Source: JBFMHD01 sp040752395 [NCBI: Candidatus Hydrogenedentota bacterium]
Lineage (GTDB): Bacteria > JBFMHD01
Length of the DNA stretch: 31,001 nucleotides
Direction of reading: 5' to 3'
Assembly (NCBI GenBank): GCA_040752395.1
Contig: JBFMHD010000006.1
Coordinates: forward strand, 1 to 31,001
Within the stretch, counting starts at the first letter, position 1; every line of letters starts with the position of its first letter. Under the pieces are notes generated by a model. The model was not told the DNA's origin. It worked only from the letters and a program-made list of their open reading frames with translations, and did not search any database. The translations under genes were made by a program, and so were the position numbers. Below are positions 2,593 to 18,483 of this stretch, one piece after another.

Positions 2593-2601
2593 ATACAACT
2601 A

Positions 2602-2631: not shown

Positions 2632-2702
2632 ATAAAAAATCATCCAGTACAAATCCTTCTCTCTAAAAAATCTACGTAAGACAGAAAGGTTTAAAAATTC
2701 AA

Positions 2703-2723
2703 CATTCAAAGATTGAAAGAATG
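2703..2723. promoter_or_regulatory. Imperfect dyad in the divergent promoter region
   Basis: Two nested inverted pairs overlap here: CATTC (2703-2707) with GAATG (2719-2723), and TTCAA (2705-2709) with TTGAA (2713-2717). The site lies about 50 bp upstream of the rightward -35 and about 70 bp from the leftward one. It could bind a regulator controlling both transcripts, but short dyads are common in AT-rich DNA. Confidence 0.2.
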
Positions 2724-2774
2724 ATAGGGAACAAGTTGTATAGAGACAAAAAATGTATATAGTTAACCACAGGA

Positions 2775-2803
2775 TTGACAACAAAAAATAATATAATTAT
2801 AAT
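2775..2803 (+). promoter_or_regulatory. Consensus sigma70 promoter of the glycan block, leaderless-type
   Basis: TTGACA (2775-2780), exactly 17 bp, then TATAAT (2798-2803): a perfect consensus in both boxes. The -10 ends 6 nt before the ATG at 2810, so the usual start point (about 7 nt downstream) coincides with the A of the start codon. The 6 nt between consist only of A. Confidence 0.8.
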
Positions 2804-2809
2804 AAAAAA

Positions 2810-4192
2810 ATGTGGTACATAAACGACCAAATGAGATTGAAATTTTTTCTGAATAATTATTTTTTGAATTATCTGTTGAATAACAATTATTCTGTACAGT
2901 ACTCGGCAGATAACAGAAGTTATGAGGTATCCTTTTGCTCTGATGGTGGGAAGAAGATAGTAGTTAAAATAATGAGAACAGGTTTCTCCAAGACACTACC
3001 TGAATTACAATCACCAATAAAAATATTTAATAAATATTTAAAAATGTATTCTCTACATCAACCAGCCGGGAATAAAATGTTTGAATACATAACCAAACAA
3101 AATATTTTTATTATAAAATTTAATATAAACATAATAGATGATACTTTTTGCTATTTTACCAGAATAAACAGAGACGGGAATAAATTTACACGTATATTGA
3201 AGACTGATTATCCGATAGTTGATGCAATATATTATTTATTTACCGAGACGGTTAACAAAGCAGCAGAAGAAAATAATATGCATCCTGTATTATCCCGGAA
3301 AAAGAATTGTCTACAAATATATCTCACTCATGATGTTGATATAATGAATAAAAATTTCGGGTCATTGTTAAGGCTTGCAGGAATAAATTTTTATAAATTT
3401 ATGACTATGGGATTTAAGGTAAAATATTTACTGGAAATATTTGAGTATATGATTCAAAAACTCAATTATGATGATTTTAGCGTACTTTATCAGATTGAAC
3501 AGGATTATAGCTCAACATTTTTTCTTCATCCTGGCTATAAAAATCTGACATTTTACCAGAAATTCATTAATTTTTTAATAAATCCACGTTATCAATTAAC
3601 CGAAAAAACCGTGGAGGAATTAAAAAAAAGAAAGAAAAATATAGGTTTACATTCTGGTTACCATTCAGCAAAAATCAAAAGTTTACTGGAGCAGGAGTGT
3701 ACGAGAATTAGCAGTATTGCTGGTCAGAGGGTAGATGTAACTCGGTTTCATTTTCTTGCATTTGACACCAGAATCACTCCTGGAATATTAGAAAAGAATG
3801 GCATAACAATTGATATGAGTTTGTATTACAATAGACATACAGGCTGGTATTATCATCAGACCACGCTGCCATATTTTCTTTTTGACACATCTGATTTTAT
3901 TCAGATACAGGTAGTAGAGATACCAACAGTTTTGATGGACGCAACTTTATATAATTATTATGATCTGGGATACGAAGAGGCGAGGAATAGAAGTATTGAG
4001 CTATTGGAGAATCTGAAGAATTTTTCATCGTTATGTTCAATCAATTTTCATACAGAGTCATTTGTTATGAGAAAAGAATATATTGTAGGGATATATAAAA
4101 ACATTATCGCTTGGATAAAGGGAAATGACGTCAGTGTTGGAGAGATAGAATATTTTTATGAAGAAATTAGACCAGAATTAAAATTTATATGA
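2810..4192 (+). CDS. NodB-like polysaccharide deacetylase (DUF7033-type)
   Basis: 460 residues. After a divergent N-terminal domain (1-165) comes a carbohydrate-esterase-4-like barrel: THDVD (173-177, catalytic Asp and metal Asp), TFFLH (236-240), GLHSGYHS (279-286, supplying HxxxH metal ligands H281 and H285) and RFHFLAFD (312-319). Near 370 is IPTVLMDATL. This is the pattern of large cytoplasmic NodB-like proteins found in O-antigen and capsule loci, where they are thought to remove N- or O-acetyl groups. No signal peptide is seen. The stop overlaps the next start (ATGA), so the two are translationally coupled. The start at 2810 rests on the promoter position; a second in-frame ATG at 2831 lacks a ribosome site. 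Confidence 0.8.
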   Translation: MWYINDQMRLKFFLNNYFLNYLLNNNYSVQYSADNRSYEVSFCSDGGKKIVVKIMRTGFSKTLPELQSPIKIFNKYLKMYSLHQPAGNKMFEYITKQNIFIIKFNINIIDDTFCYFTRINRDGNKFTRILKTDYPIVDAIYYLFTETVNKAAEENNMHPVLSRKKNCLQIYLTHDVDIMNKNFGSLLRLAGINFYKFMTMGFKVKYLLEIFEYMIQKLNYDDFSVLYQIEQDYSSTFFLHPGYKNLTFYQKFINFLINPRYQLTEKTVEELKKRKKNIGLHSGYHSAKIKSLLEQECTRISSIAGQRVDVTRFHFLAFDTRITPGILEKNGITIDMSLYYNRHTGWYYHQTTLPYFLFDTSDFIQIQVVEIPTVLMDATLYNYYDLGYEEARNRSIELLENLKNFSSLCSINFHTESFVMRKEYIVGIYKNIIAWIKGNDVSVGEIEYFYEEIRPELKFI

Positions 4193-5256
4193 GAATAGAA
4201 TTGTTTGATATCAATAAATATGAAAAAAAATGGGATGAGTTTTTATTGAATAATTCAGATTCCACTGTATTTCATACATCGATATGGCTTAAATTGATGT
4301 CTGAATTTTATAATTTTAAATTGTATCCATTATCTGCTATTGACCAGGGTAATATAATCGGGATATTACCATTTTTTCAGGTAAAAGCCCTGCAATTGAA
4401 TCATCTTGTCTCATTACCTTTACGGGATAAAGGTGGTTGTGTTGTAAGCAGAGATGATAACAATACAAGAGCTCGTTTAATAGAGTCAATGATACAGTTT
4501 GGTCGAACTCTGGATTGTAATTATATTCAAGTAAAAACAAGCGACTCAGAGGAGAAAAATGTGCTGGAACAGATGGGATTCTCTGTTCGTGAGGAATGGA
4601 TTCTATCCAGCATTAAACTTGAACCGGATTTTAATATTACAAGAAATAATTTTATAGATAAGCGGCTTAATTGGTCAATAAATAAGGCGATAACCAGTAA
4701 TTTGCAATTTGAGGACGCGGTCTCTGATATTGCAGTTTCAGAATTTTACAGGATATTTCTTAATAAAAGGAAATCACTGGGGGTTCCTCCCTATGCAAAA
4801 AAGTATTTTGATTTATTATATTCATTATTTGCGCCGAGTGGTATGGCTAAAATATTTATTGTAAGAAAGGGTTCTGAGTCATTATCATCTACATTTTTGC
4901 TTTTTCACAATAGGAAGGTTTATGATATTTTTTCCGCTTCATTAGAAAAAGGGTACGAATATCGTGCAAATGATTTTCTTATATGGCATATGATAAAGTG
5001 GCTTTGTGAACACGGATATGATGAGATTGACCTCGGTGCTGATTCACCATATCAGGAGACATTAATTAAGTATAAGAGGAAATGGGGAGTAAATGAGAAG
5101 AATCAATATTTTCTTTACTATTTTATAAAAAATAAAAAAATATTCATTAGAGACAGCGACCATCCCGGGTACCGGTGGATAAGAAAAATCTGGAGATGGA
5201 TGCCTGATTTTATGTTTGAAAACTTAGGCTCTATGCTGATTAAATATCTTGCTTAA
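4189..5256 (+). CDS. FemAB-like GNAT-fold acyl/aminoacyltransferase
   Basis: 355 residues, coupled to the gene before it by a 4-nt overlap. The N-terminus has FHTSIWLKLM (about 30), typical of FemAB/BioF2-like proteins (PF13480 type). The C-terminal GNAT lobe has DEIDLGADSPYQETLIKYKRKWG (about 278-300; only the ends of this stretch are conserved), matching the family's D-x-G-R-S...FK...G signature. FemAB proteins transfer amino acids from aminoacyl-tRNA, and relatives transfer acyl groups to sugar amines. Following a deacetylase that would expose an amine, an N-acylation role is attractive but is inference. No membrane segment is seen. Confidence 0.72.
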   Translation: MRIELFDINKYEKKWDEFLLNNSDSTVFHTSIWLKLMSEFYNFKLYPLSAIDQGNIIGILPFFQVKALQLNHLVSLPLRDKGGCVVSRDDNNTRARLIESMIQFGRTLDCNYIQVKTSDSEEKNVLEQMGFSVREEWILSSIKLEPDFNITRNNFIDKRLNWSINKAITSNLQFEDAVSDIAVSEFYRIFLNKRKSLGVPPYAKKYFDLLYSLFAPSGMAKIFIVRKGSESLSSTFLLFHNRKVYDIFSASLEKGYEYRANDFLIWHMIKWLCEHGYDEIDLGADSPYQETLIKYKRKWGVNEKNQYFLYYFIKNKKIFIRDSDHPGYRWIRKIWRWMPDFMFENLGSMLIKYLA

Positions 5257-5276
5257 GAAATTATGAAGGTTCAGGG

Positions 5277-6926
5277 ATGCAGAGCAATATTTATCTGGCT
5301 AAAAGTCTTTACGAGATAAACCGTATAATAAGTTTGATTGATAGAAGTATAGCTTCAACTACATACGGTTGTTTTGACCGACGATACTGGTCATGGCGGA
5401 TTGGTGATATCCCCAATGCAAGCTTGCAATATGGAATATTACCATTGACGTTGGTCCGGGCCACGAAATTTGAGGGAAATAATTACTATCAAAATAAAGT
5501 TATTAAAGAATGGATACTGGCTGGATTGAAGTACTGGATTAAAATACAAAATAGAAATGGTTCATTGAACCAGTTTTTTCCAAATGAACAGTCCGTTGGT
5601 ACAACTTATTATATACTATCAGCTGTTTTACAGGTATATGATTTGCTGGAAAACGAGATCGATGACGAGATTAAAGAAAAAATTGAAATCGCAGTTAAAA
5701 AGTCGGCTGAGTTTGTACTAAAATATGATGAAACGTATGCGATAATATCAAACCATATTGCATTGTTTGCTTTTGTTCTTTACAGGTTAGCTTTGAGGTA
5801 TAACGATACCCGTTATCGGGTTAAAGCTGATAGGTATTTAAACATCATTCTCAAACATCAATCTGCTGAAGGATGGTATCTGGAGTATAATGGTGCAGAC
5901 CCGGGTTATCAAACCCAGTGCATTTATTATCTTGCTGAATGCTATCGTTTAACGAAGAATGAAGAAATAGTTGATTCTGTAAAAAAGAGCATCGAAAAAT
6001 TTCTCGTATATTTTTTTCATCCTGATGGTTCATTCGGAGGAGAATACGGTAGCAGAAACACCGAACTCATTTATCCAGCTGGATTCGAGATTTTGAAAGA
6101 TAAACTGGAATCTTGTTCAATCATATCCTCGTTTATTAATCAATACCTGCGGAAGGGAACTTTGATTAGTTTGGATTCAATGGATGATGAAAATCTGCTT
6201 CGTTTGACAGCAAATTATATTATTACTTACAATTACAGTAAAAGTACGGATAACAGCTATGAACCAGAACTTAATTTACCGGCGTACAACGATTCTCTGC
6301 AGGTCTATTTTCCTGAAGCTGGTATTTTAGTGAAGGCAACTGATTGTTATTATATGATTATTGGAGCAAGTAAAGGAGGGGTTTGCAAAATATTCGATAA
6401 AAGAAACCAGAAGATTATTTTTGATGACCCCGGATACGCATTTGAGTGCACGGATAGTATAATGATTACAAATCAATTTATGCAGAAACCACGACTCAGG
6501 ATAGAAAATCAAAGTGTTACTCTTGAGGCAGATTTTTATACAGTACTGAATTCTATGCTGATGCCGTTTACTAACGTTATTTTGAGATTGTTATCTCTAA
6601 CATTTTTTAGAAGTATATTTTTTGTAGATATGTTTAAAAAATATCTTGTTAAAAAAGCTTTCACTGGTAGCCGAAAAGTCTATTTAAGTTTAAAACGAGA
6701 AATATACTTCAGGAACAAAGAGATTATTATTGAAGATACTTTAAACAAGGACAATACCTGCATAATAACAAAACAGATCAGTGGGAGAAAGTTATTTTCA
6801 GTTAAGATGGCTTCATCCAGTTATGTGTCAGTTAATGACATGGTTGACTGCTGCGGATTAACGATTAATATCGAGGTACTGAACAGAGATAATGCTATCC
6901 GGGTAAACAGGACTATCAGGATTTGA
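5277..6926 (+). CDS. Putative (alpha/alpha)6-toroid glycan-active protein, heparinase-like layout
   Basis: 549 residues. AAGG lies 7 nt before the ATG. Residues 35-300 are helical with repeated aromatic-rich hairpins (SVGTTYYILSAVLQVYD near 105-122, NHIALFAFVLYRLA near 159-172, ADPGYQTQCIYYLAECYRL near 207-225, GSFGGEYGSRNTELIYPAGF near 251-270). That is how (alpha/alpha)6 lyases, epimerases and hydrolases look. Residues 330-549 are strand-rich, like the beta-sandwich that follows the toroid in heparinase II/III-type lyases. There is no signal peptide, so it would act inside the cell or be exported otherwise. The EYGSRNTE block may be the catalytic patch. I cannot name a family with certainty. 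The downstream radical SAM gene overlaps or abuts its stop. Confidence 0.5.
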   Translation: MQSNIYLAKSLYEINRIISLIDRSIASTTYGCFDRRYWSWRIGDIPNASLQYGILPLTLVRATKFEGNNYYQNKVIKEWILAGLKYWIKIQNRNGSLNQFFPNEQSVGTTYYILSAVLQVYDLLENEIDDEIKEKIEIAVKKSAEFVLKYDETYAIISNHIALFAFVLYRLALRYNDTRYRVKADRYLNIILKHQSAEGWYLEYNGADPGYQTQCIYYLAECYRLTKNEEIVDSVKKSIEKFLVYFFHPDGSFGGEYGSRNTELIYPAGFEILKDKLESCSIISSFINQYLRKGTLISLDSMDDENLLRLTANYIITYNYSKSTDNSYEPELNLPAYNDSLQVYFPEAGILVKATDCYYMIIGASKGGVCKIFDKRNQKIIFDDPGYAFECTDSIMITNQFMQKPRLRIENQSVTLEADFYTVLNSMLMPFTNVILRLLSLTFFRSIFFVDMFKKYLVKKAFTGSRKVYLSLKREIYFRNKEIIIEDTLNKDNTCIITKQISGRKLFSVKMASSSYVSVNDMVDCCGLTINIEVLNRDNAIRVNRTIRI

Positions 6927-6940
6927 TTTTGCATTTATTT

Positions 6941-8122
6941 ATGCCTATGAAACGATATTATTTACTGGCAAAAAGATTTTACAAACGGCTGTTTAAGATT
7001 CAGGCGCATCAGAGTGCGGGCCCGAATGCAACGCCATTGAGGCTTATATGGAACGCCTTGCCATATTTATTTTTAAAAAACGGATACAGTTTTTCACCAC
7101 TCTCTCTTTTTTTTATCATAAACAGCAGATGTAATTTTAAATGCAAAATGTGCGATGTTGGACAGAATAATTCAAAAAGCATGTTTTACAAAAACCTGGT
7201 TGGAAGTGATAAAGGAGATTACCCGGTTGAGGCTTTTAAAAGACTGATTGATGAGGTTAAAGGATTTAAACCATATATCAGTATCACTTCGACCGAACCT
7301 CTGCTCTACAAACCACTGCCAGAAATAATTAATTATGTAATTCAGTCAGGACTAATAATAAATGTTCTTACGAACGGTTATATTCTTGAAAAGAGAGCAG
7401 AAGAATTAGTGGATGCAGGGCTGTATAGTTTGAATGTTTCAATTGACGGACCACCTACTGTGCATAATCAATTACGCGGTGTATCTGATGCTTTTGAACG
7501 AGCAATAGCCGGCATTATGAAAATCGTTGAAAGAAAAGAGAAAAGAAAGAGTAAATTACCTTACCTTGGTATTAATGCTACCATAACAGACAGTACCGCC
7601 CCATATATGGTAGATTTAATAAAATCTTTACCTATGAAGCATCTGGCCAAGGTATCATTTATGACAATGGTATTTCTATATCAGGAATTAGCCGACCTGC
7701 ATAACAGAGAGTTTGGAGACAGGTATTTTGCTACAGAAGTCTGTCTTTCAGGAGGAGCTAATCCTAAAAAAGTGGATGTTGACAAACTTGTAGAACAATC
7801 AAATTTAGTAAAGAAAATGTATCCTGATAAAGTGTTTTTATACTACCAACCGGATAAAGAAGAGTTAACGAGATATTTTTATAAACCCGATGAGTTTATG
7901 GATAATACCAGATGCGTATTCCCGTGGTTTTCTGCACAGATATTATCTAACGGCGATCTGGTGGGATTAACCAGATGTTATCCAACGGTATTTGGCAATG
8001 TGGTGGAAAAATCCTTCAAAGAGGTATGGCTTGGGGAGAAGATCAGGGAATTCAGGAAGGATTTGCAGAAATATGGTAGGTTTCCTGCCTGTACAAGATG
8101 TGAGGGTGTGCTGTACGAGTAG
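6941..8122 (+). CDS. Radical SAM/SPASM enzyme
   Basis: 393 residues from ATG 6941. A TTG at 6923 overlapping the previous stop (TTGA) would add six residues. Neither start has a clear ribosome site. The radical SAM motif is CNFKCKMC (Cys 64, 68 and 71 from the ATG), followed by STEP in the GGEP position, and by VLTNGY and NVSIDG strands. The C-terminus has a SPASM/twitch-like region with Cys 325, 346, 384 and 387 and LSNGDLVG. It should bind SAM-cleaving [4Fe-4S] plus one auxiliary cluster. Relatives modify peptides or sugars, act as carbohydrate dehydrogenases or epimerise residues. Its neighbour is the (alpha/alpha)6 protein, suggesting a glycan substrate. The N-terminal 40 residues are basic and amphipathic, perhaps for membrane contact. 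Confidence 0.85.
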   Translation: MPMKRYYLLAKRFYKRLFKIQAHQSAGPNATPLRLIWNALPYLFLKNGYSFSPLSLFFIINSRCNFKCKMCDVGQNNSKSMFYKNLVGSDKGDYPVEAFKRLIDEVKGFKPYISITSTEPLLYKPLPEIINYVIQSGLIINVLTNGYILEKRAEELVDAGLYSLNVSIDGPPTVHNQLRGVSDAFERAIAGIMKIVERKEKRKSKLPYLGINATITDSTAPYMVDLIKSLPMKHLAKVSFMTMVFLYQELADLHNREFGDRYFATEVCLSGGANPKKVDVDKLVEQSNLVKKMYPDKVFLYYQPDKEELTRYFYKPDEFMDNTRCVFPWFSAQILSNGDLVGLTRCYPTVFGNVVEKSFKEVWLGEKIREFRKDLQKYGRFPACTRCEGVLYE

Positions 8123-8165
8123 ATAATGAAAAAAATTTGTTATCAACCAGTAACTATTATTTTTG

Positions 8166-9638
8166 ATGATGGAATACTCTAATTTGATACCTAAAGAAGT
8201 AGCCAAACAGACAAGGATGTTATTTATCGCCCCTGGCAATCTGGCTGGAGATTTCTCAAATGTTCCCCTTGGTATAGCTACTCTTGCATCCATCCTCCTG
8301 CTAAACAATGTGTATGTAATAGTGAAAGATTATAGTGTTGAGCAACTTGATCTGGGTGAACTCAAAAGGATAATAAAAGATAACAATATTAACATTGTGG
8401 GAATAACTATGATGACCTGTCAGGCAACTGTGGGTTACCGTATCGCAGAATTTATCAAAAGTAATTTTACTGATGTCACTGTAGTTTCAGGTGGTATTCA
8501 TCCCACAGTTTTACCTGAGGAATCTTTAAAAAATTCAATTGATATTGTATATCGTGGAGAAGCAGAAATAAGTTTCCCTAAATCTATACCATATATTATT
8601 AACACAGATTACCGGGGATTGAAAGAGATAAGGGGGTTGACATTTAAATATAATGATGAGTTATATACAACACCTGAAGCGGAGAGAATTACGAAGTTAG
8701 ATAATATACCACTACCAGCATATCAATTGTTTAAGTTTCCTCATAAATATACAACCCAGTTTTTGTTTAAACGTGGATATTCAACCAATCTTATAACAAG
8801 TCGTGGTTGTACAGGACATTGTGTTTTTTGTAGTAAATATTATCAGGGTGTATATTATCAAAGTCCTGAAAGGATAGTTAACGATATTATATTTTTAAAA
8901 GATAAATATGGGGTAACTCAATTTTTTCTTCAGGATGACCTATTCACATATGATATAGATCGTGTTATAAAGTTCTGTGATATCTTAATCAAAGAAAAGA
9001 TTGACATCCACTGGGTATGTTCGAATACGAGGGCAGATACGGTCACAGAAGAGTTGTTTAAAAAAATGAAGAAGAGCGGGTGTATAAGTGTTGGTTTTGG
9101 GGTAGAGTCAGGTAATGAAGAGGTAAGAAGAAAGATAGGAAAAAATTTAAAGACAGAAGATATTGTCAGAGCAGTGAAACTTGCGAAAAGTACAGGTTTG
9201 CTAACAAGTGCTTTTTATATTTTTGGACATCATTGTGAAACGTATCAGCAAGCTTTTGAAACAATAGATTTTTCTATAAAACTTAATACAGATACTGTGA
9301 CATATTCCGTAAACTGTCCATATCCGGGTACCACTTTGTTTAAAATGGATGGTAAAAAAATAAAAATACTTACCTATGACTGGGATAGGTATAGAACGTG
9401 GGGGAAACCTGTTATGGAAACAGAGTTTCTGGCAAAAGACCTAATTGTTAAATTACAGAAACTTGCGTATAGAAGGTATTACTTCAGGATGAATTACATA
9501 TATAATCAGATAAAAAATATGATAAAATATAAAAATATATATATGTATCAGCGAGGATTTAAATGGTTGATAGAACAGTATTTTGATTATAGAAGATTAT
9601 CTAAATATAAACCTGAACATTTAAGAATATACCAATGA
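8166..9638 (+). CDS. B12-binding-domain radical SAM enzyme (first of tandem three)
   Basis: About 490 residues. Starts at 8163 (TTG), 8166 or 8169 (ATG) are all in frame and none has a ribosome site. Numbering here is from the ATG at 8166. Residues 15-140 form a Rossmann-type B12-binding domain (VPLGIATLASIL, SGGIHPTVLP, YRGEAEISF). The radical SAM core begins with SRGCTGHCVFC (Cys 215, 219, 222) and continues with ...VGFGVESG and an FGHHCET stretch where the family has G-x-PGET. No DxHxxG is present in the B12 domain, which is normal for this class. Members perform methylations of unactivated carbon, cyclisations or ring contractions (BchE, HpnJ, GenK types). The substrate is unknown. The gene overlaps the next B12 radical SAM gene by 4 nt. 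Confidence 0.9.
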   Translation: MMEYSNLIPKEVAKQTRMLFIAPGNLAGDFSNVPLGIATLASILLLNNVYVIVKDYSVEQLDLGELKRIIKDNNINIVGITMMTCQATVGYRIAEFIKSNFTDVTVVSGGIHPTVLPEESLKNSIDIVYRGEAEISFPKSIPYIINTDYRGLKEIRGLTFKYNDELYTTPEAERITKLDNIPLPAYQLFKFPHKYTTQFLFKRGYSTNLITSRGCTGHCVFCSKYYQGVYYQSPERIVNDIIFLKDKYGVTQFFLQDDLFTYDIDRVIKFCDILIKEKIDIHWVCSNTRADTVTEELFKKMKKSGCISVGFGVESGNEEVRRKIGKNLKTEDIVRAVKLAKSTGLLTSAFYIFGHHCETYQQAFETIDFSIKLNTDTVTYSVNCPYPGTTLFKMDGKKIKILTYDWDRYRTWGKPVMETEFLAKDLIVKLQKLAYRRYYFRMNYIYNQIKNMIKYKNIYMYQRGFKWLIEQYFDYRRLSKYKPEHLRIYQ

Positions 9639-11062
9639 AAATATTATTTTTAATACCGTTTATTAATAGAAAAGAGCAATGGGGTCCCTGGCGCTGGGGT
9701 GCTGGCAACAATCAGTTTAATTATGGTATTGCTTCTCTCGCCGGATATCTGGAAAGTAAAGAGATTGATGTTGGACTTATTGATATGCAGTTTTTAAAAG
9801 ATAAAGACTTAGGAATTATGCTTAATAAAGAGATGCCTGATTTAATAGGTATTAGTTGTTATACACCGACTTATAAAGCATCTATTGAACTTGCCAGATT
9901 GTGTAAAAATATAAATTCAGATGTAAAAATTATATTTGGTGGCGCACATCCCTCATTATATCCACGTGATACATTAGAAGAAAATTCTTTCATAGATTTT
10001 GTTGTGGTAGGTGAAGGTGAGATTACTTTATATGAGCTTATAAAAGCATTGCAAGATATGAGATACGATTTTTCAGATATAAAAGGTCTTGCTTATAGAA
10101 AAGATGGAAAAGTTTTAATAAATCCTAAACGAGAATTCATAGATTTAAGTAAAGATAGTACCTTACCAGCATATAAAATTTTTCCACTCGATAAATATAT
10201 AATTCAGGCAACATCTTATAAAAAGTTGCCTACATATACACTTGTTGCTTCTCGCGGTTGCCCATATAATTGTACCTTCTGTCAGGTAAAACAATTCCTT
10301 GGAAGCAGGATGAGATATAAATCCCCTGAAATTTTAATCAAAGAGATTAGATACCTTAAAGATAATTTTAATGCTCGAGGAATAATGTTCCAGGATTCAA
10401 CTTTTACTACTGATTGGAACTGGTTAAAAAAATTTTGCAAATTAATGACAGATGAACGGTTGAATGATTTAACGTGGATGTGTTTTACAAGGGCAGACAG
10501 GGTAAATAAAGAGATTCTTTCTATGATGAAAAGAACAGGTTGTTATGGTATGAGTTATGGTGTCGAGTCAGCAAACCAGAAATCGCTTGATTTACTTAAA
10601 AAAGGTATAAAAATAGAGCAGATAATTGATACTGTTAAACTCTCGCTCGAGATGGGATTTTATGTGACAACCACATATATGCTTGGCATCCCGGGTGAGG
10701 ATGAATCCGATGTGATGAGAACAATAAAACTTGCTAATACTCTTGCAACCCATATTGCTCACTTCTATCTACCTATCCCATATCCAGAATCTGAATTGTA
10801 TTATCAATGTAAAGAGACTGGCGGATTAAGGGAGGACATTATATGGGAGGATTATAATATGTTTGATGATGAAAGACCTGTATATATTAATCCAAAGATT
10901 GGTTTAAAAAAGATGGTAGCTCTAAAAAATTATGCGGTTAAAAAATATTATATAAACCCCAGGGTTATCTGGAGAAATATCAAGGAGATCAACTCTAAAG
11001 ATGACATAATAAAATACTGGGATGCAGTAAAATCTTTAGCAGGATTTTTTATTAACAGATGA
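9635..11062 (+). CDS. B12-binding-domain radical SAM enzyme (second of three)
   Basis: 475 residues, coupled by ATGA overlaps on both sides. The N-terminal B12-type Rossmann domain contains FGGAHPSLYP (about 101-110) and the canonical GEGE (126-129). The radical SAM motif is SRGCPYNCTFC (Cys 209, 213, 216), followed by a full core with YGVESANQKSLDLL and LGIPGEDESD. This is the most canonical of the four B12 radical SAM proteins in the window. The first 30 residues hold an unusual WGPWRWGAGNNQ loop before the usual 'YGIASLAGYL' helix. Tandem paralogues usually act on successive positions of one product, but the product is not deducible from sequence. Confidence 0.92.
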   Translation: MKILFLIPFINRKEQWGPWRWGAGNNQFNYGIASLAGYLESKEIDVGLIDMQFLKDKDLGIMLNKEMPDLIGISCYTPTYKASIELARLCKNINSDVKIIFGGAHPSLYPRDTLEENSFIDFVVVGEGEITLYELIKALQDMRYDFSDIKGLAYRKDGKVLINPKREFIDLSKDSTLPAYKIFPLDKYIIQATSYKKLPTYTLVASRGCPYNCTFCQVKQFLGSRMRYKSPEILIKEIRYLKDNFNARGIMFQDSTFTTDWNWLKKFCKLMTDERLNDLTWMCFTRADRVNKEILSMMKRTGCYGMSYGVESANQKSLDLLKKGIKIEQIIDTVKLSLEMGFYVTTTYMLGIPGEDESDVMRTIKLANTLATHIAHFYLPIPYPESELYYQCKETGGLREDIIWEDYNMFDDERPVYINPKIGLKKMVALKNYAVKKYYINPRVIWRNIKEINSKDDIIKYWDAVKSLAGFFINR

Positions 11063-11748
11063 AAGATGAAGAATTATTTGAATTATGGGAAAACAAAATA
11101 AAAATTGAACTTACACAGGAGATTGTTAATAAGAGATTTAATATCTGGTCTATTTTTCATAAATGGGGACATAACTCTGTAGTAACATACTTAAAAAGCA
11201 TCAATTTTACAAAAAATGATACTATCCTTGAAGTAGGTTCAGGTGACTGTTATTTCAGTTCTTTGTTAGATGAAAATTTATCTAAGAGATATATAGGTCT
11301 TGATATCTCTAATAAAATACTCTCTTTATCTAAAAGAAAGGTTAAAAAAATTCAGGCAGATTTATATAGCCTGCCTTTTAGAGATGATTCCATTAAGGTT
11401 ATAATATCTATATATAATCTTGAGCATCTGCATTTATTAGAAAAAGGTATCGATGAGATAAATAGAGTATTACAGATGAGTGGGAGCTTTATTTTTGCCA
11501 TCCCTATGGAAAATGGTCTTTTATATGATTTAGCAAGATGGTTTACTACGAAAAGGATTGTTGAGAAACGATATAAAGTTGATTATATGAAGATCATAAG
11601 AGAGTATGAGCATCCTAATACTGCAAAAAATGTATTAAAAAGAATAAAACAGAAATTCAAAATAGTAAAATCGGGATATTATCCATTTTTGGTACCATTT
11701 ATTAATTTAAACTTATTTTCTGTTTTCAAGGCTGTTAAATATGAATAA
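11059..11748 (+). CDS. Class I SAM-dependent methyltransferase
   Basis: 229 residues. Motif I is ILEVGSGDCYFSSLL (about 55-69); the acidic end of the second strand is YIGLDIS (about 79). The Methyltransf_11 pattern of LPFRDDSIKVIISIYNLEHL follows (about 110-130). The C-terminal part (150-229) is basic and lacks a recognisable substrate domain. It lies between the second and third B12 radical SAM genes with a 4-nt and an 8-nt overlap, so it is almost certainly made together with them. O- or N-methylation of the same sugar or lipid is likely. Confidence 0.82.
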   Translation: MKDEELFELWENKIKIELTQEIVNKRFNIWSIFHKWGHNSVVTYLKSINFTKNDTILEVGSGDCYFSSLLDENLSKRYIGLDISNKILSLSKRKVKKIQADLYSLPFRDDSIKVIISIYNLEHLHLLEKGIDEINRVLQMSGSFIFAIPMENGLLYDLARWFTTKRIVEKRYKVDYMKIIREYEHPNTAKNVLKRIKQKFKIVKSGYYPFLVPFINLNLFSVFKAVKYE

Positions 11749-13264
11749 TAAGAGTGTATTATTGATATATCCACCACTTGGTTCTGATGATATTTTTATC
11801 AGGGATATTCCGCTCAGTCTCCTTTATGCAGCCACACTCTCAGTAAAAAATGGGTATCATATTGAGATACTTGATTTAAGAATTTGTAAAGATTTTCGTG
11901 GCACATTGATAAAAAGAATAGCAAAAGGGGATATTTTATTAGTGGGAATATCAGTTCTAACTGGGAACCCTATAAAGTATGCTATTGAGATTACTGATAT
12001 TATAAAAAGTTTTAGAAGAGAGATAAAGATTGTCTGGGGTGGACATCATTCTACAATGGAACCTGAATCTACTATGGGATTTAAGAAAATAGATTTTCTT
12101 ATAAGAGGATTTGGTTCAAAACCTTTAAAGAAACTTATTGAACAACTATTTAATGACACGAATAATTTTTCAGAAATACAGGGTTTGACATATAGAGATG
12201 GAGATAAAATAATAAGTAACGATATTGAAACAGAATGGGAGATAATTAATTATAAAGATATTCCATATCATCTTATAGAAAACAACCTGGTAAATTATAG
12301 CAGGTTTAAAGGTCGAGATAGAACATTCCCCATATTTACAAGTATGGGGTGCCCATACAAATGTAGTTTCTGTATGGCACCACTTTTATACAAAAATTTT
12401 AAAAGAAAGATTATATATTTTGATATAGATGAAGTTATAGAGCATATTAAATTTTTAATAGAAAGATACAATGCAACAGAGATATCTATATATGATGATG
12501 ATTCATTTGTTGATATAAAAAGAATGGAATATTTTTTTAAGAGAATAATTGGGGAAGATATACGGATAAAGATAGACTTTCGTGGTATCCGTATAGATGA
12601 ATTGTATCGTCTGGATAATAATTTTCTTGAACTGATGAGAAAAGCAGGGGTCAGGCATTTTCAAGTAGGGCTTGAATCAGGTTCACAGAAGGTTCTTGAT
12701 ATACTGAACAAAAATATAAAAATTGAGCAAATAATAGAAGTAAACAGAAGATTGATAGATTACAAGGAACTTGTACCTTTATATAATCTTATGACAGGTA
12801 TACCAGGAGAAACAATTGCTGAATTAAAAGCCACTCGTGATTTAGTATTAAAATTGTATAATGAGAATCCGAATTGTATAATAGGGTTTCCTGCAAAATT
12901 TAAACCTTTACCAGGAACTGAACTGTATAAGATAGCAGTAAAGGATTATAATTTAAGAAAAATCGATACTCTTTCTGAATGGGCAAAGATAGATACTGCA
13001 GAAACAGATTTATATTTTCCCTGGTATACTCGAGAATGTAATAATTATATAAAAATGTTCCAGGTAGTATCATTTTTTATAGATAAAAAAATTTTGAGAG
13101 AGATTGAGTGTACATCTGTAATTAATAAAATTCTGAGAATTATAGCAATACTATATAGACCTGTAGCTTTATTCAGACTCAAACATAATATTACTCTTTT
13201 AAATATCGAATATTTTTTATATACATTAATTAGAAGAGCCATACAGAAAATAAGATATTTATAG
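11741..13264 (+). CDS. B12-binding-domain radical SAM enzyme (third of three)
   Basis: 507 residues. The B12-type domain has LSLLYAATLS and WGGHHSTMEP (about 99-108), but the usual GEGE is replaced by GFGS (123-126). The radical SAM motif is SMGCPYKCSFC (Cys 204, 208, 211), followed by VGLESGSQKVLDIL and TGIPGET. A basic, helical C-terminal extension (about 430-507) contains hydrophobic stretches ending in RRAIQKIRYL and may attach to the membrane. This would fit a lipid-linked substrate, which is inference. It closes the tightly overlapping module B; about 120 bp without a gene follow. Confidence 0.9.
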   Translation: MNNKSVLLIYPPLGSDDIFIRDIPLSLLYAATLSVKNGYHIEILDLRICKDFRGTLIKRIAKGDILLVGISVLTGNPIKYAIEITDIIKSFRREIKIVWGGHHSTMEPESTMGFKKIDFLIRGFGSKPLKKLIEQLFNDTNNFSEIQGLTYRDGDKIISNDIETEWEIINYKDIPYHLIENNLVNYSRFKGRDRTFPIFTSMGCPYKCSFCMAPLLYKNFKRKIIYFDIDEVIEHIKFLIERYNATEISIYDDDSFVDIKRMEYFFKRIIGEDIRIKIDFRGIRIDELYRLDNNFLELMRKAGVRHFQVGLESGSQKVLDILNKNIKIEQIIEVNRRLIDYKELVPLYNLMTGIPGETIAELKATRDLVLKLYNENPNCIIGFPAKFKPLPGTELYKIAVKDYNLRKIDTLSEWAKIDTAETDLYFPWYTRECNNYIKMFQVVSFFIDKKILREIECTSVINKILRIIAILYRPVALFRLKHNITLLNIEYFLYTLIRRAIQKIRYL

Positions 13265-13305
13265 ATATTACTTTCTCTATGAGATTTAAGTCAATTTAAA
13301 ATCGG

Positions 13306-13324
13306 AATAACAAGTGGTGTTATT
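13306..13324. repeat. Perfect 7-bp inverted repeat between modules
   Basis: AATAACA (13306-13312), a 5-nt loop and TGTTATT (13318-13324) lie 41 nt after the third B12 radical SAM gene. The stem is A/T-rich and not followed by a clean T-run, so it is a weak terminator candidate at best. It could instead be an operator for the SGNH gene. Confidence 0.25.
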
Positions 13325-13386
13325 TATAGAAAATGATTTATGATTTTCTTGAAAAAGTTTAATGTATCTTGGAAAATGGAACTGAT

Positions 13387-14502
13387 ATGAGCATATTTTC
13401 GAGTAGGAAGACATTTTATAAATTATTATTTATTATATTGTCATTATCGCTTAGCTTTGTTTTTCTTGAGGCAGGTATCCGTTTAATATTGCCTTCTCAA
13501 AGGCATCCAGTCTTATACCAAAAGAGTGAGAGTGGCAGCCATCTTCTAAAGCCTAATGTGAAATTAAAATATAGCCAGAAAGAATTTTCACATGATATTT
13601 TTACTAATTCGGCCGGCTTCAGAAATAAAAAAGAACTATTTAATGAAAATATTATTCTTTTTATCGGAGATTCGTTTACATTTGGTGCCGGTGTTGATGA
13701 GGAAAATCACTACTCTTACATCTTTGACAGATTGCTAAACTGGAATAAAGAAAGATTCAATGTATACAATGCAGGTGTACCAGGCTATTGCACAATAGAT
13801 GAATATCTTTACATAAAAGACCTGATAAACCGTAGGTTAGATATCAAAGTTATTATTTTAGGAGTAGATATAAGCGATTTTAACGAGAATTTGCTTGTGC
13901 CTATATACGATATTATGGATGGTCGTCTTGTATTTTCGACAAAAGAGAAAAAAGGCATTATTGTAAGAGTCATAAATTTTCTTGCCACTAATTCTGAATT
14001 GGTAAACTTTATTTATTATAGAATCGTGCATTCGAGCGTATTAAAGAACTATTTTGACTCTATTCTTAATTATGAATATTTTAGTATCAACCTTCCTGAT
14101 AAGAATCTTGGGCTTTTCGCAAGACAAAAGGATCAGACCAGCAGTAGAAAATTGAAGGTATTCGAGGAGTATCTTATTAAGATTATAGAATTATGCAGGG
14201 AACACGATATAGAATTATACGTCTATTATATCCCTATGATTCTGGAAATTTATGACGAAAGTTATCAAAGCACATTGAAGACTTATGACCTGAAGCCTGG
14301 AGATTTTGATCTGTCATTTTTGAATGAGTATATAAAGTCTATTGCCATAGAAAATAATGTTCAATTTCTTGATTTAAAGAGCGACCTTTTAAGATTTAAT
14401 GACTACCCACTATATTTTTTGATAGACCAGCACTTTAATAAATACGGGAATTTTATTGCAGGTATAAGCCTCTATAAGAACTACCTTAATAAGCAAAAAT
14501 AA
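13387..14502 (+). CDS. Membrane-anchored SGNH/GDSL-family hydrolase or acetyltransferase-like protein
   Basis: 371 residues from the ATG at 13387, preferred because GGAA lies 5 nt before it; a TTG at 13369 would add six. Residues 8-36 form one hydrophobic signal-anchor segment preceded by SSRK, so the catalytic part should lie outside the inner membrane. The nucleophile block is LFIGDSFTFGAG (Ser 96) and the C-terminal Asp/His pair is in DQHFNKYG (D347, H349), the SGNH catalytic arrangement. AlgX/AlgJ-like and related SGNH proteins acetylate or deacetylate exported polysaccharides. This one probably adjusts ester groups on the finished glycan. It is flanked by 122 bp and 268 bp of non-coding DNA, so it may be its own transcription unit. 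Confidence 0.82.
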   Translation: MSIFSSRKTFYKLLFIILSLSLSFVFLEAGIRLILPSQRHPVLYQKSESGSHLLKPNVKLKYSQKEFSHDIFTNSAGFRNKKELFNENIILFIGDSFTFGAGVDEENHYSYIFDRLLNWNKERFNVYNAGVPGYCTIDEYLYIKDLINRRLDIKVIILGVDISDFNENLLVPIYDIMDGRLVFSTKEKKGIIVRVINFLATNSELVNFIYYRIVHSSVLKNYFDSILNYEYFSINLPDKNLGLFARQKDQTSSRKLKVFEEYLIKIIELCREHDIELYVYYIPMILEIYDESYQSTLKTYDLKPGDFDLSFLNEYIKSIAIENNVQFLDLKSDLLRFNDYPLYFLIDQHFNKYGNFIAGISLYKNYLNKQK

Positions 14503-14564
14503 AATAGCCATAGTCATATCAAATTATTATGGAAAGGATTTTACATTTCGGAATCTGCATTTAA

Positions 14565-14620
14565 TCTTTGTGCCCGGTAACTGATGTTCTAACTTCTAAC
14601 TTCTGAGCAAACCACAAAGA
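14565..14620. repeat. Inverted repeat enclosing heptanucleotide repeats
   Basis: TCTTTGTG (14565-14572) and CACAAAGA (14613-14620) form a perfect 8-bp stem. The 40-nt loop contains TTCTAAC twice in tandem (14587-14593 and 14594-14600) plus a decayed third copy. It sits in the 268-bp non-coding gap between the SGNH hydrolase and the glycosyltransferase. It may be a dispersed intergenic repeat or an RNA structure. No further gene is seen in the gap. Confidence 0.35.
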
Positions 14621-14727
14621 ATCTAATAATGTAAAAGAAAAGTTTTGCCGATATATATATTCAGGAGAGGGTCTCTTGATGTTACAGGTTATGGCTTCCA
14701 CAATTAATCATCTCTTATTTAAAAAAC

Positions 14728-14756
14728 TTGTAATAAATAAAGAAATAAAATATATT
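14728..14756 (+). promoter_or_regulatory. Putative promoter of module C
   Basis: TTGTAA (14728-14733), 17 bp, TATATT (14751-14756). The -10 ends 14 nt before the ATG at 14771, predicting a leader of about 8 nt without any ribosome site. This matches the short-leader pattern at 2602-2803. Confidence 0.5.
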
Positions 14757-14770
14757 TATCAGATGATATT

Positions 14771-15565
14771 ATGAATAAAAACAGTAAAATTGCGGTCATT
14801 ATTCCAATCTACAATGAGGAAGATACACTACCTCATCTTTTTTATCGGATTGATGGTGTATACAAGATATTGAAGGATGATTATCAGATAAAATTCATCA
14901 TAGTAAATGATGGCAGCAAAGATAATTCGCAACAACTGCTGGTAAATAAATACGGTGATTCTTCTTTTGTTGATATTATCCATTATCCTGAGAACAGTGG
15001 ATTTGGAGGTGCTTTAAAAACCGGATTCAAAAAAACTCTTGAAGAAGGATACCAATTTATTATCACGATTGATGCAGATACTAATTATGACCATTTTTTG
15101 ATCCCATATTTTATATATGAATTCAAACCAGATGAGGAGGATATACTTGCTGGCTCGCCATGGCATCCCGAAATCGTTCGGAATAATTTCCCCTTTATTA
15201 GATATATTTTAAGTTATTCTATGTCTCTTATATATCAGTTTGTTCTTCGAAATAAATGCAAACCATTAACCTGTTATTCTGCCTGTCTGAGGTTATATAA
15301 ACGTGAAGTCATTGCCAATCTTCAAATTGAGAGCAATGATTTCTTAACAAATACTGAGATTATGACCAAAGCTTTGCTACGGGGGTACAGGGTGAGGGAA
15401 CTGCCTGTTAGTGTGAATTATCGTCTGTTTGGGATATCGAAAATGAAATTTACGCAAACAATTCTGCGTCACATAAAATATTTATGGTATCTCTATAAGT
15501 TGTATAAATTAAAAGATAATGAGCATCTGAAATATGTGCGGTATTTGTGGAATATATTATTTTGA
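14771..15565 (+). CDS. Family 2 glycosyltransferase, polyprenyl-phosphate sugar transferase-like
   Basis: 264 residues, GT-A fold. The N-terminus has AVIIPIYNEEDTLPHLFYRI (8-27), VNDGSKDNS (about 46) and a DxD-type site in TIDADTNYDH (about 98). The C-terminal YRLFGISKMK matches the pocket signature of dolichyl-phosphate mannose synthase (DPM1) and DesVII/ArnC-like enzymes. No transmembrane helices follow the catalytic domain, so it would be a DPM1-like single-domain enzyme working at the inner face of the membrane, loading a sugar onto a lipid phosphate or extending a glycan. Its last 32 nt overlap the start of the amidotransferase gene in another frame. Confidence 0.85.
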   Translation: MNKNSKIAVIIPIYNEEDTLPHLFYRIDGVYKILKDDYQIKFIIVNDGSKDNSQQLLVNKYGDSSFVDIIHYPENSGFGGALKTGFKKTLEEGYQFIITIDADTNYDHFLIPYFIYEFKPDEEDILAGSPWHPEIVRNNFPFIRYILSYSMSLIYQFVLRNKCKPLTCYSACLRLYKREVIANLQIESNDFLTNTEIMTKALLRGYRVRELPVSVNYRLFGISKMKFTQTILRHIKYLWYLYKLYKLKDNEHLKYVRYLWNILF

Positions 15566-17411
15566 CAAACATAATAACGTAAAACCAGAACAGATTATCA
15601 CTATGCGTGATACAATGATTCATCGTGGGCCTGATGACTGCGGTTTGTATCTGAAGGGTAACATCGGGCTGGGACACAGAAGACTGAGTGTCATTGATTT
15701 AGAGACAGGACATCAGCCTATATTTAATGAAGATAGGACCATTGTTATTATATTTAACGGAGAGATATATAATTATCTCGAATTAAAAGAGAGATATCTT
15801 AAACATCATACGTTTACTACTAAAACTGATACAGAAGTTATAATACATTTGTATGAAGAGTTCGGGACCGGTGCTTTTTGTCTGCTTGAGGGTATGTTTG
15901 CTTTTGCTTTATATGATGCCAGCCAGGATGTTATGCGTATTGTGCGTGATTATTTTGGTATTAAGCCACTTTATTATTATTATGATAAAGACCAGTTTAT
16001 TTTTGCTTCGGAAATAAAAGCACTTCTTAAGCTTGGTATAGAACCTGTATTAAATGATGAAATTATGCTTGAGTATCTGACCTTCCAATATTATCAAAGC
16101 GATTCAACATTGCTGGAAAATATAAACCGGTTAACCCCGGGATGTTATCTTTCTCTGTCATGGGGTCTGATAAAAAAAGATAGATACTGGCAATTAAAAG
16201 TTAATGAAGACCAATCAATCACTGAAACAGATGCCAGGGAACATATAAAAAAATTAATTCAAAATTCAGTCAAACTTCAATTAAGGAGCGATGTACCGCT
16301 TGGTTGTCATCTGAGCGGCGGGGTGGATACTGCAATAATCAGTGGCATAGTAAGTAAACAGAATATTAAAGACCGACTCAAAACATTTACCGCATATTTT
16401 AGCAATGAATCAGGTATTTATGACGACACCTTTTTTGCAGAGAAGACAGCTCGTCATATCGGTGCGGAAATGTTTAAGATAGATTTAAACGAGGATGATT
16501 TTTTTGAAACCCTGAGAGAATTATTTTATTATCTTGAAGAGCCTGGTGCAGGAGAAGGTGCTTTACCACACTATTTTGTGTCGAAACTGGCTTCAGAGAA
16601 TGTTAAAGTGGTATTAGGTGGTCAGGGGGCTGATGAAATGTTTGGTGGTTACGTTAGATACTACATTCTTTATCATTCCTTACTATCCGATTCATCAGTG
16701 AAACTTTCAGAAAATGATCTGCGGATGGAGGATTTAAAGGGTTCGGCTGAACAACTGAAGAATTATAACCAACTTTATATGGATATGCTCACATCTACGT
16801 GTGGTTGCCATCTTGCTCAAAAATATTTTTTCTTAATCAACAGATTAAAAGAACCAGGGAAAGTATTAAGTGAGCAACTCTATAATAAATACAAATCATA
16901 TGATACAAGATTTGCCATCAGACCTTTTTTAGAATGCAATGCGGAGAGTACCATATTAAACCGTGTTTTATTATATGAAATAAATACCTGGTTGCCTACT
17001 TTATTAAATGTTGAGGACAGGATGAGTATGAGATGGTCAGTAGAGTCACGGGTTCCTTTTCTGAGTCATCAGTTGGCAGAGTTTGCTATGCAGATACCGG
17101 CAAAAATTAAGTTAAATGGTGGCATTTTAAAATATATATTAAAACAGTCTATGAAGAATTACCTGCATCCTGAGATATTTAAAAGAAAAGATAAGATTGG
17201 ATTTCCTGTACCGCTCACTTGCTGGCATAAAAGAATCACTGAATACTTGAGAAATATGATTAAAAACTCGCCTGCTATAGAATATATATTCAGTCGACAA
17301 TATTTGAATACAGCGGCAACCGAAACAAAAGAATTTGATAGAGGGTTATGGGGCTTGATATCAGTATCAAACTGGTTGAATATATTTCAACCGAAACTCA
17401 GAGACCAATAG
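15534..17411 (+). CDS. asnB: Asparagine synthetase-type glutamine amidotransferase
   Basis: 625 residues. The start is fixed by the invariant MCGICG, since Cys2 is the glutaminase nucleophile. The class II amidotransferase domain (1-200) shows HRGPDD (30-35), HRRLSVID (48-55) and NGEIYN (75-80). The ATP-pyrophosphatase domain shows SGGVDT (261-266, P-loop) and GGQGADEMFGGY (about 363). Length fits the long AsnB/AsnO forms. It uses glutamine and ATP to amidate a carboxylate. In glycan loci such proteins (WbpS-like) often amidate uronic acids instead of aspartate. The 32-nt overlap with the glycosyltransferase and the neighbouring nucleotide-sugar epimerase support that reading, but real asparagine synthesis cannot be excluded. 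Confidence 0.88.
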   Translation: MCGICGIYYFDKHNNVKPEQIITMRDTMIHRGPDDCGLYLKGNIGLGHRRLSVIDLETGHQPIFNEDRTIVIIFNGEIYNYLELKERYLKHHTFTTKTDTEVIIHLYEEFGTGAFCLLEGMFAFALYDASQDVMRIVRDYFGIKPLYYYYDKDQFIFASEIKALLKLGIEPVLNDEIMLEYLTFQYYQSDSTLLENINRLTPGCYLSLSWGLIKKDRYWQLKVNEDQSITETDAREHIKKLIQNSVKLQLRSDVPLGCHLSGGVDTAIISGIVSKQNIKDRLKTFTAYFSNESGIYDDTFFAEKTARHIGAEMFKIDLNEDDFFETLRELFYYLEEPGAGEGALPHYFVSKLASENVKVVLGGQGADEMFGGYVRYYILYHSLLSDSSVKLSENDLRMEDLKGSAEQLKNYNQLYMDMLTSTCGCHLAQKYFFLINRLKEPGKVLSEQLYNKYKSYDTRFAIRPFLECNAESTILNRVLLYEINTWLPTLLNVEDRMSMRWSVESRVPFLSHQLAEFAMQIPAKIKLNGGILKYILKQSMKNYLHPEIFKRKDKIGFPVPLTCWHKRITEYLRNMIKNSPAIEYIFSRQYLNTAATETKEFDRGLWGLISVSNWLNIFQPKLRDQ

Positions 17412-17424
17412 CAGGGAGTGAATT

Positions 17425-18483
17425 ATGAAAATTGCGAGTATTATAGGGACGCGACCGAATTTTACCAAAGAATTTGCAATAAATGAAATATGTCGACAGA
17501 AAGACATTAAGGAAATACTGATTCATACCGGCCAGCATTACGATTATGAGATGTCCCAACTATTTTTTCAGGAACTTAATATACCACGGCCGGATTTTAT
17601 TAATTCGATAATTAAGGGCCCGCAGGGATATGAGACAGCCACTATGCTTGCTTTCATCGAACAGGTACTTATGCAAGAAAGAGTAGATGTCACAATTGTG
17701 TATGGTGACGTCAACTCATCTCTTGCCGGTGCTCTTGCCTCGGTAAAACTTAGGATTCCAGTGGTACATATTGAAGCTGGCCTACGTACCAACGACTTTT
17801 ACAACTCTGAGGAAATTAATCGCAGGGTTACGGATGCCTGTTCAGAATTGCTTTTCCCACATATCCAATCTGCTTATAATTCACTAATCAGGGAAGGTTA
17901 TGACAGGGATAGAGTATTTTTATTTGGTGATATTGTAAAGGATAGCCTGCTAAAAATAATTGAGCAGAAGAAGATAGTTGTTACCAGAGATAACTATATT
18001 TTATGTACCATCCATCGTGCTGAAAACACCGATTCGCCAGAGAGAATGACGAAAATAATCAATGCTTTGCTAAAGAGCGATAAAACTATAATATTTCCAG
18101 TTCATCCACGCACAATGGATAGTCTTAAAAGATATGGTCTCTATGAGCAGATAAGCAAAAACAGCAATATCGTATTACTGCCACCGCAGGGATTTCTTGA
18201 TTTTATCAGGTTGCTTGCTGGGTGTAACAAGATTATAACTGATTCAGGTAGCGCAAGGCGAGAAGCATATATTCTTGGCAAGCCAATTATTGTTCCAATT
18301 AATCTGATATGGGTTCCGGAGATGGTAGAATGTGGCTGGAGTAGAATAACCGATGCTGAGGAACAAGCCATATTGGAAGCAATATATAAACATAATCCTT
18401 CAAATGCAAACAGGCCGGAGATTTTCGGTGATGGTCACGCCGCAGAAAAAATCATAACAAAAATTATGGAAAGATTCGGATGA
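17425..18483 (+). CDS. wecB: Non-hydrolysing UDP-GlcNAc 2-epimerase family protein
   Basis: 352 residues. A good ribosome site, GGGAG, lies 6-7 nt before the ATG. GT-B-type fold with GTRPNF at 8-13 (the family usually has GTRPE), YGDVNSS (D95), HIEAGLR (E117), NSEEINRR (E129/E130) and HRAEN (H197). These match the catalytic Asp, Glu, Glu and His of E. coli WecB. In the UDP-binding loop the usual TDSGGxQEEA is TDSGSARREA (273-282), so Gln and both Glu differ. The reaction is interconversion of UDP-GlcNAc and UDP-ManNAc or a related 2-acetamido sugar. The altered loop suggests a variant substrate. It couples to the next gene by ATGA. Confidence 0.88.
   Translation: MKIASIIGTRPNFTKEFAINEICRQKDIKEILIHTGQHYDYEMSQLFFQELNIPRPDFINSIIKGPQGYETATMLAFIEQVLMQERVDVTIVYGDVNSSLAGALASVKLRIPVVHIEAGLRTNDFYNSEEINRRVTDACSELLFPHIQSAYNSLIREGYDRDRVFLFGDIVKDSLLKIIEQKKIVVTRDNYILCTIHRAENTDSPERMTKIINALLKSDKTIIFPVHPRTMDSLKRYGLYEQISKNSNIVLLPPQGFLDFIRLLAGCNKIITDSGSARREAYILGKPIIVPINLIWVPEMVECGWSRITDAEEQAILEAIYKHNPSNANRPEIFGDGHAAEKIITKIMERFG

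Follow-up and report, generated by a model that had tools for sequence, protein, structure and literature searches.

What might three different cobalamin-binding radical S-adenosylmethionine (SAM) enzymes and a methyltransferase do when they are encoded in one overlapping run? Cobalamin radical SAM enzymes are abundant, and few of them have known substrates. The run analyzed here lies in a 31,001-nucleotide (nt) stretch of contig JBFMHD010000006.1 from a Candidatus Hydrogenedentota bacterium, and this whole stretch is referred to as the window. The run is real and co-conserved; it encodes three uncharacterised cobalamin radical SAM enzymes (B12a, B12b, and B12c) and a methyltransferase (MT) and is located in a surface-glycan locus. 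We consider it an even call that the set tailors a sugar of the surface glycan, probably by C-methylation combined with one O- or N-methylation. Domains, the cysteine motif, the cobalamin (B12)-loop residues, the fold of two of the three enzymes, co-conservation in two loci, and the glycan context were computed; from these we infer the substrate, carrier, step order, and reaction type.

The four-gene run and its recurrence

The run consists of four open reading frames (ORFs).

8163 to 9638, plus strand: B12a, cobalamin-binding radical SAM enzyme, 491 amino acids (aa); start at TTG 8163 or ATG 8166
9635 to 11062, plus strand: B12b, cobalamin-binding radical SAM enzyme, 475 aa
11059 to 11748, plus strand: MT, SAM-dependent methyltransferase, 229 aa; Methyltransf_11, 59.6 bits
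11741 to 13264, plus strand: B12c, cobalamin-binding radical SAM enzyme, 507 aa

The B12a stop and the B12b start share positions 9635-9638, a 4-nt overlap. B12b and MT overlap by 4 nt (11059-11062), and MT and B12c by 8 nt (11741-11748). An earlier note on this DNA had described four overlapping ORFs encoding three distinct B12 radical SAM proteins and one methyltransferase, and the ORF and Pfam analyses confirmed it. The B12-binding domain (PF02310) scored 50.2, 83.2, and 41.5 bits in B12a, B12b, and B12c, respectively (Pfam cut-off 32.1), and the Radical_SAM domain (PF04055) scored 86.1, 90.8, and 81.7 bits (cut-off 29.5). All three have the class 1 cobalamin radical SAM architecture, in which a B12-binding Rossmann domain at the N-terminus precedes a radical SAM barrel. 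The CX3CX2C motif with its three cysteine residues is intact in each. Pairwise identity among them is 24-28%. MT had only weak matches in the PDB and could be of the O-, N-, or C-type.

Residues were compared in an alignment that retained 157 of 163 hidden Markov model (HMM) hits (score >120, length 380-750), which was also used for the tree. The G-G-x-H-x-T/S residues belong to the cobalamin loop. B12a, B12b, and B12c retained all of them, so that cobalamin binding is predicted at residue level for the three enzymes; the G, G, and H were present in 145, 146, and 137 of the 157 rows.

A collection of 84,980 species was scanned with B12b as the query. This gave 270 relatives, and 79 distinct loci were kept; pattern-based scanning of this kind may miss orthologs. 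The four-gene set was found in one of the 79 loci, L001, which belongs to the metagenome-assembled genome of Spirochaetes bacterium RBG_16_49_21. Identities to the L001 counterparts were 59% for B12a, 66% for B12b, 52% for MT, and 58% for B12c, whereas the B12b relatives of the other loci in the scan table reached at most 34%. The gene order in L001 is SPASM1, B12b, MT, B12c, B12a, GDSL, GT2, AsnB, and WecB, with the remaining co-conserved genes upstream. Compared with the window, B12a has moved and the hexapeptide transferase gene stands elsewhere in the order. The nine neighbors shared with L001 are the following, each given with the identity to its L001 counterpart.

2101 to 2598, minus strand: hexapeptide acyltransferase (PF00132), 64%
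2810 to 4192, plus strand: VimE-like deacetylase (NF053580, 51.6 of 440 bits; no Pfam match), 27%
4189 to 5256, plus strand: FemAB/GNAT-like protein (Acetyltransf_6, 58.6 bits; pepcterm_femAB, 139.4 of 260.35 bits), 47%
5277 to 6926, plus strand: 549-aa protein, at a guess heparinase/lyase-like (Pec_lyase, 21.9 bits, just under the cut-off of 22), 47%
6923 to 8122, plus strand: SPASM1, radical SAM/SPASM protein (PF04055 and PF13186), 76%
13369 to 14502, plus strand: GDSL/SGNH-type protein (PF13472, 35.8 bits), 56%
14771 to 15565, plus strand: family 2 glycosyltransferase (GT2), DPM1/ArnC-like, of the polyprenyl-phosphate sugar synthase type (best PDB relatives DPM synthase and ArnC), 63%
15534 to 17411, plus strand: AsnB-type glutamine amidotransferase (TIGR01536, 477.9 bits, over the cut-off of 267.1), 53%
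17425 to 18483, plus strand: WecB-type non-hydrolysing UDP-GlcNAc 2-epimerase (TIGR00236, 252.4 bits, over the cut-off of 210.15), 71%

All 13 window genes across about 2101-18483 thus have an L001 counterpart, and the conserved block exceeds the four-gene run first noted. Because the four genes and nine neighbors recur in L001, their clustering is more than chance. The glycan-type neighbors bear out the earlier placing of the three enzymes inside a glycan locus. Further along the window (18480-28428), no counterpart closer than about 32% was found in L001 or the flanks L085 and L086. The synonymous sites were saturated when the ratio of nonsynonymous to synonymous substitutions (dN/dS) was analyzed between L001 and the window, and the analysis yielded no ratio.

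The four-gene unit is rare within the searched genomes. Of 392 phylum genomes, 2 had a B12c match at E 1e-60 when the top few candidates per genome were scored. SPASM1 matched in 1 of 392 at E 1e-50. At E 1e-45, B12c matched in 2 of 46 class genomes, namely that of L001 (G001) and a second one (G024, 32% identity). As read from translations, both the L001 flank and the surroundings of the G024 relative contain apparent heptose-pathway genes, epimerases, and aminotransferases. Plasmid relatives amounted to 191 records for B12b, 108 for B12c, and 126 for B12a, all below 60% identity and, among the rows listed, up to about 30%. A search for virus-encoded relatives of B12c and B12a found none.

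Families, folds, and unusual residues

The three enzymes and MT were compared with NCBIfam profiles (the best 25 of 31 rows for B12a, the best 25 of 29 for B12b, all 24 for B12c, and 20 of 20 for MT). None of the four proteins reached the cut-off of any family shown. The top HMM name was BchE for B12a and B12c and HpnJ for B12b. Scores in bits for the main families were as follows.

HpnJ (TIGR03471): B12a 155.2, B12b 192.5, B12c 92.4; cut-off 577.6
BchE (TIGR02026): B12a 160, B12b 174.5, B12c 107.5; cut-off 481.35
AprD4 (NF033070): B12a 90.2, B12b 70.6, B12c 38.7; cut-off 500
B12_rSAM_oligo (TIGR04295): B12a 60.5, B12b 74.9, B12c 49.5; cut-off 400
RiPP C-methyltransferase (TIGR03975): B12a 83.5, B12b 125, B12c 81.2; cut-off 281.85
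MgmA (TIGR04014): B12a 81.2, B12b 117.3, B12c 78.5; cut-off 360

The earlier note had named two outcomes that would speak against its proposal: membership of all three proteins in families with established, unrelated functions, and absence of the unit from all relatives. Neither came true, as every named family shown was missed and the set recurs in L001.

Among the better HMM matches were ApyD and rSAM_ocin_1. They would agree with maturation of a ribosomally synthesized and post-translationally modified peptide (RiPP), in which the three enzymes methylate a ribosomal peptide. These scores were far under the cut-offs. In L001, if MT is taken to begin at ATG 11439, as aligned, the gaps from the 549-aa protein to WecB are all 18 nt or shorter, so there is no precursor gene between these genes. 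RiPP maturation was rejected as very improbable.

The tree was built with a quick method and supported by the Shimodaira-Hasegawa-like approximate likelihood ratio test (SH-aLRT) only; 42 of 152 inner branches were drawn open. B12a was placed beside 11 ORFs from Bacteroidales-type tandem runs (L004, L005, L021, and L042; SH-aLRT 87). The only partner of B12b was its L001 ortholog (SH-aLRT 100). B12c joined its relatives from L001 and G024 (SH-aLRT 83). The BchE and HpnJ references fell elsewhere, apart from the three enzymes; the BchE reference grouped with other rows.

3D structures of B12a and B12c were predicted, with predicted local distance difference test (pLDDT) scores of 90.0 and 90.1, respectively. 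Both models showed the cobalamin/radical-SAM fold and aligned with OxsB, TsrM, TokK, CysS, and MgmA. The top match of both was AprD4 (6fd2, with bound paromamine), with Z 31.2, a root-mean-square deviation (rmsd) of 2.8, and 407 aligned residues for B12a, and Z 28.2, rmsd 3.2, and 420 aligned residues for B12c. MgmA (9ccb), a C-methylase of glutamine in methyl-coenzyme M reductase (MCR), ranked second for both (B12a: Z 28.2, rmsd 3.0, 376 aligned; B12c: Z 27.2, rmsd 3.2, 381 aligned). CysS gave Z 28.0 for B12a and 26.0 for B12c, and OxsB gave 26.2 and 27.1. MgmA therefore tied with CysS for B12a and was nearly level with AprD4 for B12c, whose first four matches lay within about 1 to 2 Z of one another. 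Foldseek also ranked AprD4 first for B12a, ahead of TsrM and MgmA. Likeness of predicted folds alone is no demonstration of a reaction. The residue on the lower cobalt face was compared in phmmer alignments (TokK W76 opposite B12b P78, OxsB N186 opposite B12a M84); this was too unsure and was not used.

AprD4 acts on an aminosugar and is the closest fold for B12a and B12c, whereas its identity to them is 17-21% and its motif in 6fd2 is CX3CX3C rather than CX3CX2C. MgmA is a cobalamin C-methylase of similar length, but its substrate is a protein, and the structural alignments showed 21-22% identity. BchE shares the architecture of the three enzymes.

The AprD4 match raises the alternative that a lipid-linked aminosugar undergoes ring contraction, cyclisation, or deoxygenation by one or more of the three enzymes; the precedents would be HpnJ, with bacteriohopanetetrol glucosamine as its substrate, and AprD4, with paromamine. 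The best family names, HpnJ for B12b and BchE for B12a, also point in this direction. In addition, the GT2 and the VimE-like deacetylase parallel HpnI and HpnK; HpnJ works on lipid-linked glucosamine, following glycosyltransferase and deacetylase steps (PMC12583986). Against this, the HpnJ, BchE, and AprD4 cut-offs were missed by a wide margin, and the HpnJ and BchE references did not group with the three enzymes. The B12-loop residues, retained in all three, are degenerate in the HpnJ reference, where V, G, and K stand in place of G, G, and H and the T is lost as well. None of 11 HpnH matches in the genome of L001, whose completeness was not given, was over the cut-off. We regard the ring or deoxygenation alternative as unlikely, though worth keeping in view. 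The hopanoid pathway itself, suggested by the best names HpnJ and BchE, was rejected on the cut-offs, the tree, and the HpnH search. The degenerate loop residues (V, G, K) of the annotated HpnJ at L089 (4794-6215) suggest that cobalamin binding by this HpnJ may be atypical.

B12c is unusual and the oddest of the three. At the two acidic positions of the GExE motif, E was found in 139 and 142 of the 157 rows and D in 6 and 8. B12c and its L001 ortholog carry F and S at these positions and are the only 2 of 157 rows without both acids. Ten other rows lack the acid or are gapped at the first position, and five lack it at the second. The Arg preceding the Cys motif was present in 143 of the 157 rows; B12c and its L001 ortholog have M or L instead, and 6 other rows have L. 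The two changes went together: all seven rows without an acid at the second GExE position had L or M in place of this Arg (B12a residues 135 and 214, respectively), vs one of the 150 others (L020). Since five of the seven rows form one clade, loss of the second acid represents two independent events. This covariation suggests a contact between the second acid and the Arg that spans the two domains.

Other B12 radical SAM genes in the window and elsewhere

The window contains a fourth B12 radical SAM gene (25831-27558), located outside the conserved block. Its product has a C-terminal extension, and its NCBIfam matches were all under the cut-off. In the tree, it clustered with two Omnitrophota proteins. 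Across 25831-28428, this gene is followed by a second methyltransferase, and a tetratricopeptide repeat (TPR) gene precedes it. Besides SPASM1, a second SPASM radical SAM gene was found at 22762-23721. The C-terminus of the protein encoded at 282-2021 on the minus strand resembles spiro-SPASM (84.0 of 250 bits; no Pfam match). This likeness pointed to Spirochaetota as the host phylum, but the protein had no match among 392 genomes of the phylum sample at E 1e-30 or better, an empty answer that shows nothing by itself. The FemAB-like protein had suggested an exosortase/PEP-CTERM link, which was rejected; neither of two genomes (G001 and G024) had an exosortase match.

A run was defined as B12 radical SAM genes on the same strand at most 300 nt apart. 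It was counted in the 79 loci, which were selected by likeness to B12b, so that the counts are not a genome-wide rate; 77 loci had a kept ORF (L046 and L049 gave none), and plasmid loci, L085, and L087 were outside the count. Runs of two or more genes were found in 17 of 79 loci, L001 included, and runs of three or more in 8. These 8 loci represent about five independent lineages, because one lineage apparently accounts for L004, L005, and L042 and another for L014 and L017. Glycosyltransferase or glycan-export genes lay near runs in Bacteroidales, L009, L032, and L011. The statement of the earlier note that such trios are known mainly from natural-product, hopanoid, or phosphonate-like pathways was therefore too strong.

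In the Bacteroidales locus L042, a tandem trio has ABC exporter, UbiA, DegT, and PglD-like genes nearby. In the Patescibacteria locus L009, the gene for a SPASM protein forms an unbroken row with three B12 radical SAM genes and two methyltransferase genes; the row adjoins a GT2 gene, and GT1 and flippase-like genes are also nearby. In the Planctomycetota locus L011 (4224-12124), HMGL-like and E1/transketolase-like dehydrogenase genes are followed by three B12 radical SAM genes and then a GT2 gene, possibly with carbon-chain building feeding the radical enzymes. For the archaeal locus L017, two neighbors were tested; one was an IlvD-type dehydratase and one had no match, and no glycan gene was seen among them.

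Several further loci showed features of their own. The L005 contig is labeled Mycobacteriales, and its run has the same spacing as that of the Bacteroidales locus L004, with nearly the same scores; it is probably mis-binned. In the Marinilabiliales locus L021 (9905-11320), the first B12 radical SAM gene looks split into 274-aa and 193-aa ORFs, and the 274-aa ORF, which comes first, covers the B12 domain but the radical SAM domain only in part. A Citrobacter portucalensis plasmid typed as mobilizable (L090, 8247-18094) carries five radical SAM genes behind a GH3-like gene, accompanied by N-acetyltransferase, fatty acid desaturase, and PAP2 phosphatase genes.

The UbiA prenyltransferase near the Bacteroidales-type runs of B12a relatives (L042 and L021) fits another explanation, namely that a lipid carrier or membrane lipids are methylated or joined and that the glycan genes are merely nearby. 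The genome of L001 also has a squalene/hopene cyclase-like gene. This gene lies on a different contig and scores 244.9 bits against a cut-off of 431.1, and the co-conserved neighbors of recognisable type are mostly glycan-type. We judge the lipid explanation improbable.

A proposed route to a carbon-modified surface sugar

Sugar tailoring is suggested by the domains, the B12-loop residues, the fold, the glycan neighbors conserved in L001, the DPM1/ArnC-like GT2, the gentamicin precedent, and a cobalamin adenosyltransferase gene over the cut-off in the genome of L001. In the proposed route, the GT2 probably loads a nucleotide sugar onto polyprenyl phosphate. This sugar, amidated and/or acetamido, would be produced with the AsnB- and WecB-type enzymes. 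B12a, B12b, and B12c would then act in succession on the carrier-linked sugar or its nucleotide form through the 5'-deoxyadenosyl radical and cobalamin. At least one of them, and probably more, would transfer the methyl group of methylcobalamin to an unactivated sugar carbon. MT, an ordinary SAM methyltransferase, would cap a hydroxyl or amine. The deacetylase and the acyl-transfer proteins would complete the resulting branched, multiply methylated sugar before its export.

Among the titles and abstract beginnings covered, we found no description of such a surface-glycan set. Methylation is described as the most common reaction of cobalamin radical SAM enzymes (PMC11659888); these enzymes were also described as especially well known for methylations, along with ring contraction, thioether bond formation, and ring formation (PMC13331322). 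Because of the anatomy of the three enzymes and this prominence of methylation, sugar C-methylation by at least one of them is favored ahead of ring rearrangement or deoxygenation, with a likelihood that we put near one half. Gentamicin offers a precedent: one aminosugar scaffold is the shared substrate of two cobalamin radical SAM C-methylases (GenD1 and GenK) and of GenN, a SAM N-methyltransferase (PMC5461906). The likeness lies in the pathway layout only, several cobalamin radical SAM enzymes plus a SAM methyltransferase on one saccharide, and no sequences were compared. GenD1, GenK, and GenN belong to an antibiotic cluster, whereas GT2, AsnB, and WecB accompany the present set in its surface-glycan locus. 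The earlier proposal of sugar C-methylation or ring rearrangement fits both GenD1/GenK and HpnI/HpnK/HpnJ. In the sources read, the sugar-acting precedents belong to antibiotic or hopanoid pathways (PMC5461906, PMC12583986).

Several points weigh against sugar C-methylation in a glycan pathway. AprD4, the closest fold, is a dehydratase and no methylase, and neither BchE nor HpnJ, the best HMM names, is a methylase. B12c lacks residues that are normally conserved, and its role may be a different one. Glycan loci do not account for all runs, L011 being mixed and no glycan gene being seen among the two tested neighbors of L017. The four-gene set is known from one other genome, so that co-conservation means two loci. 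The polyprenyl carrier is predicted from the GT2 subfamily alone. A sugar as the substrate, instead of a lipid or an amino-acid substituent, is likewise a prediction, and so is the product of the set. A bolder version, in which three successive radical steps on a carrier-linked sugar yield an undescribed surface monosaccharide and B12c catalyzes a new type of cobalamin radical reaction, seems to us a long shot, about as doubtful as the ring or deoxygenation alternative.

Since the same set, reordered, occurs in a spirochaete genome, the product of sugar tailoring is probably an undescribed carbon-modified sugar, most likely C-methylated. The compact, twice-observed set in a surface-glycan locus is a defined four-enzyme system and points to surface sugars whose assembly depends on B12. 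Runs in several phyla suggest a recurring, little explored route to diversify surface molecules.

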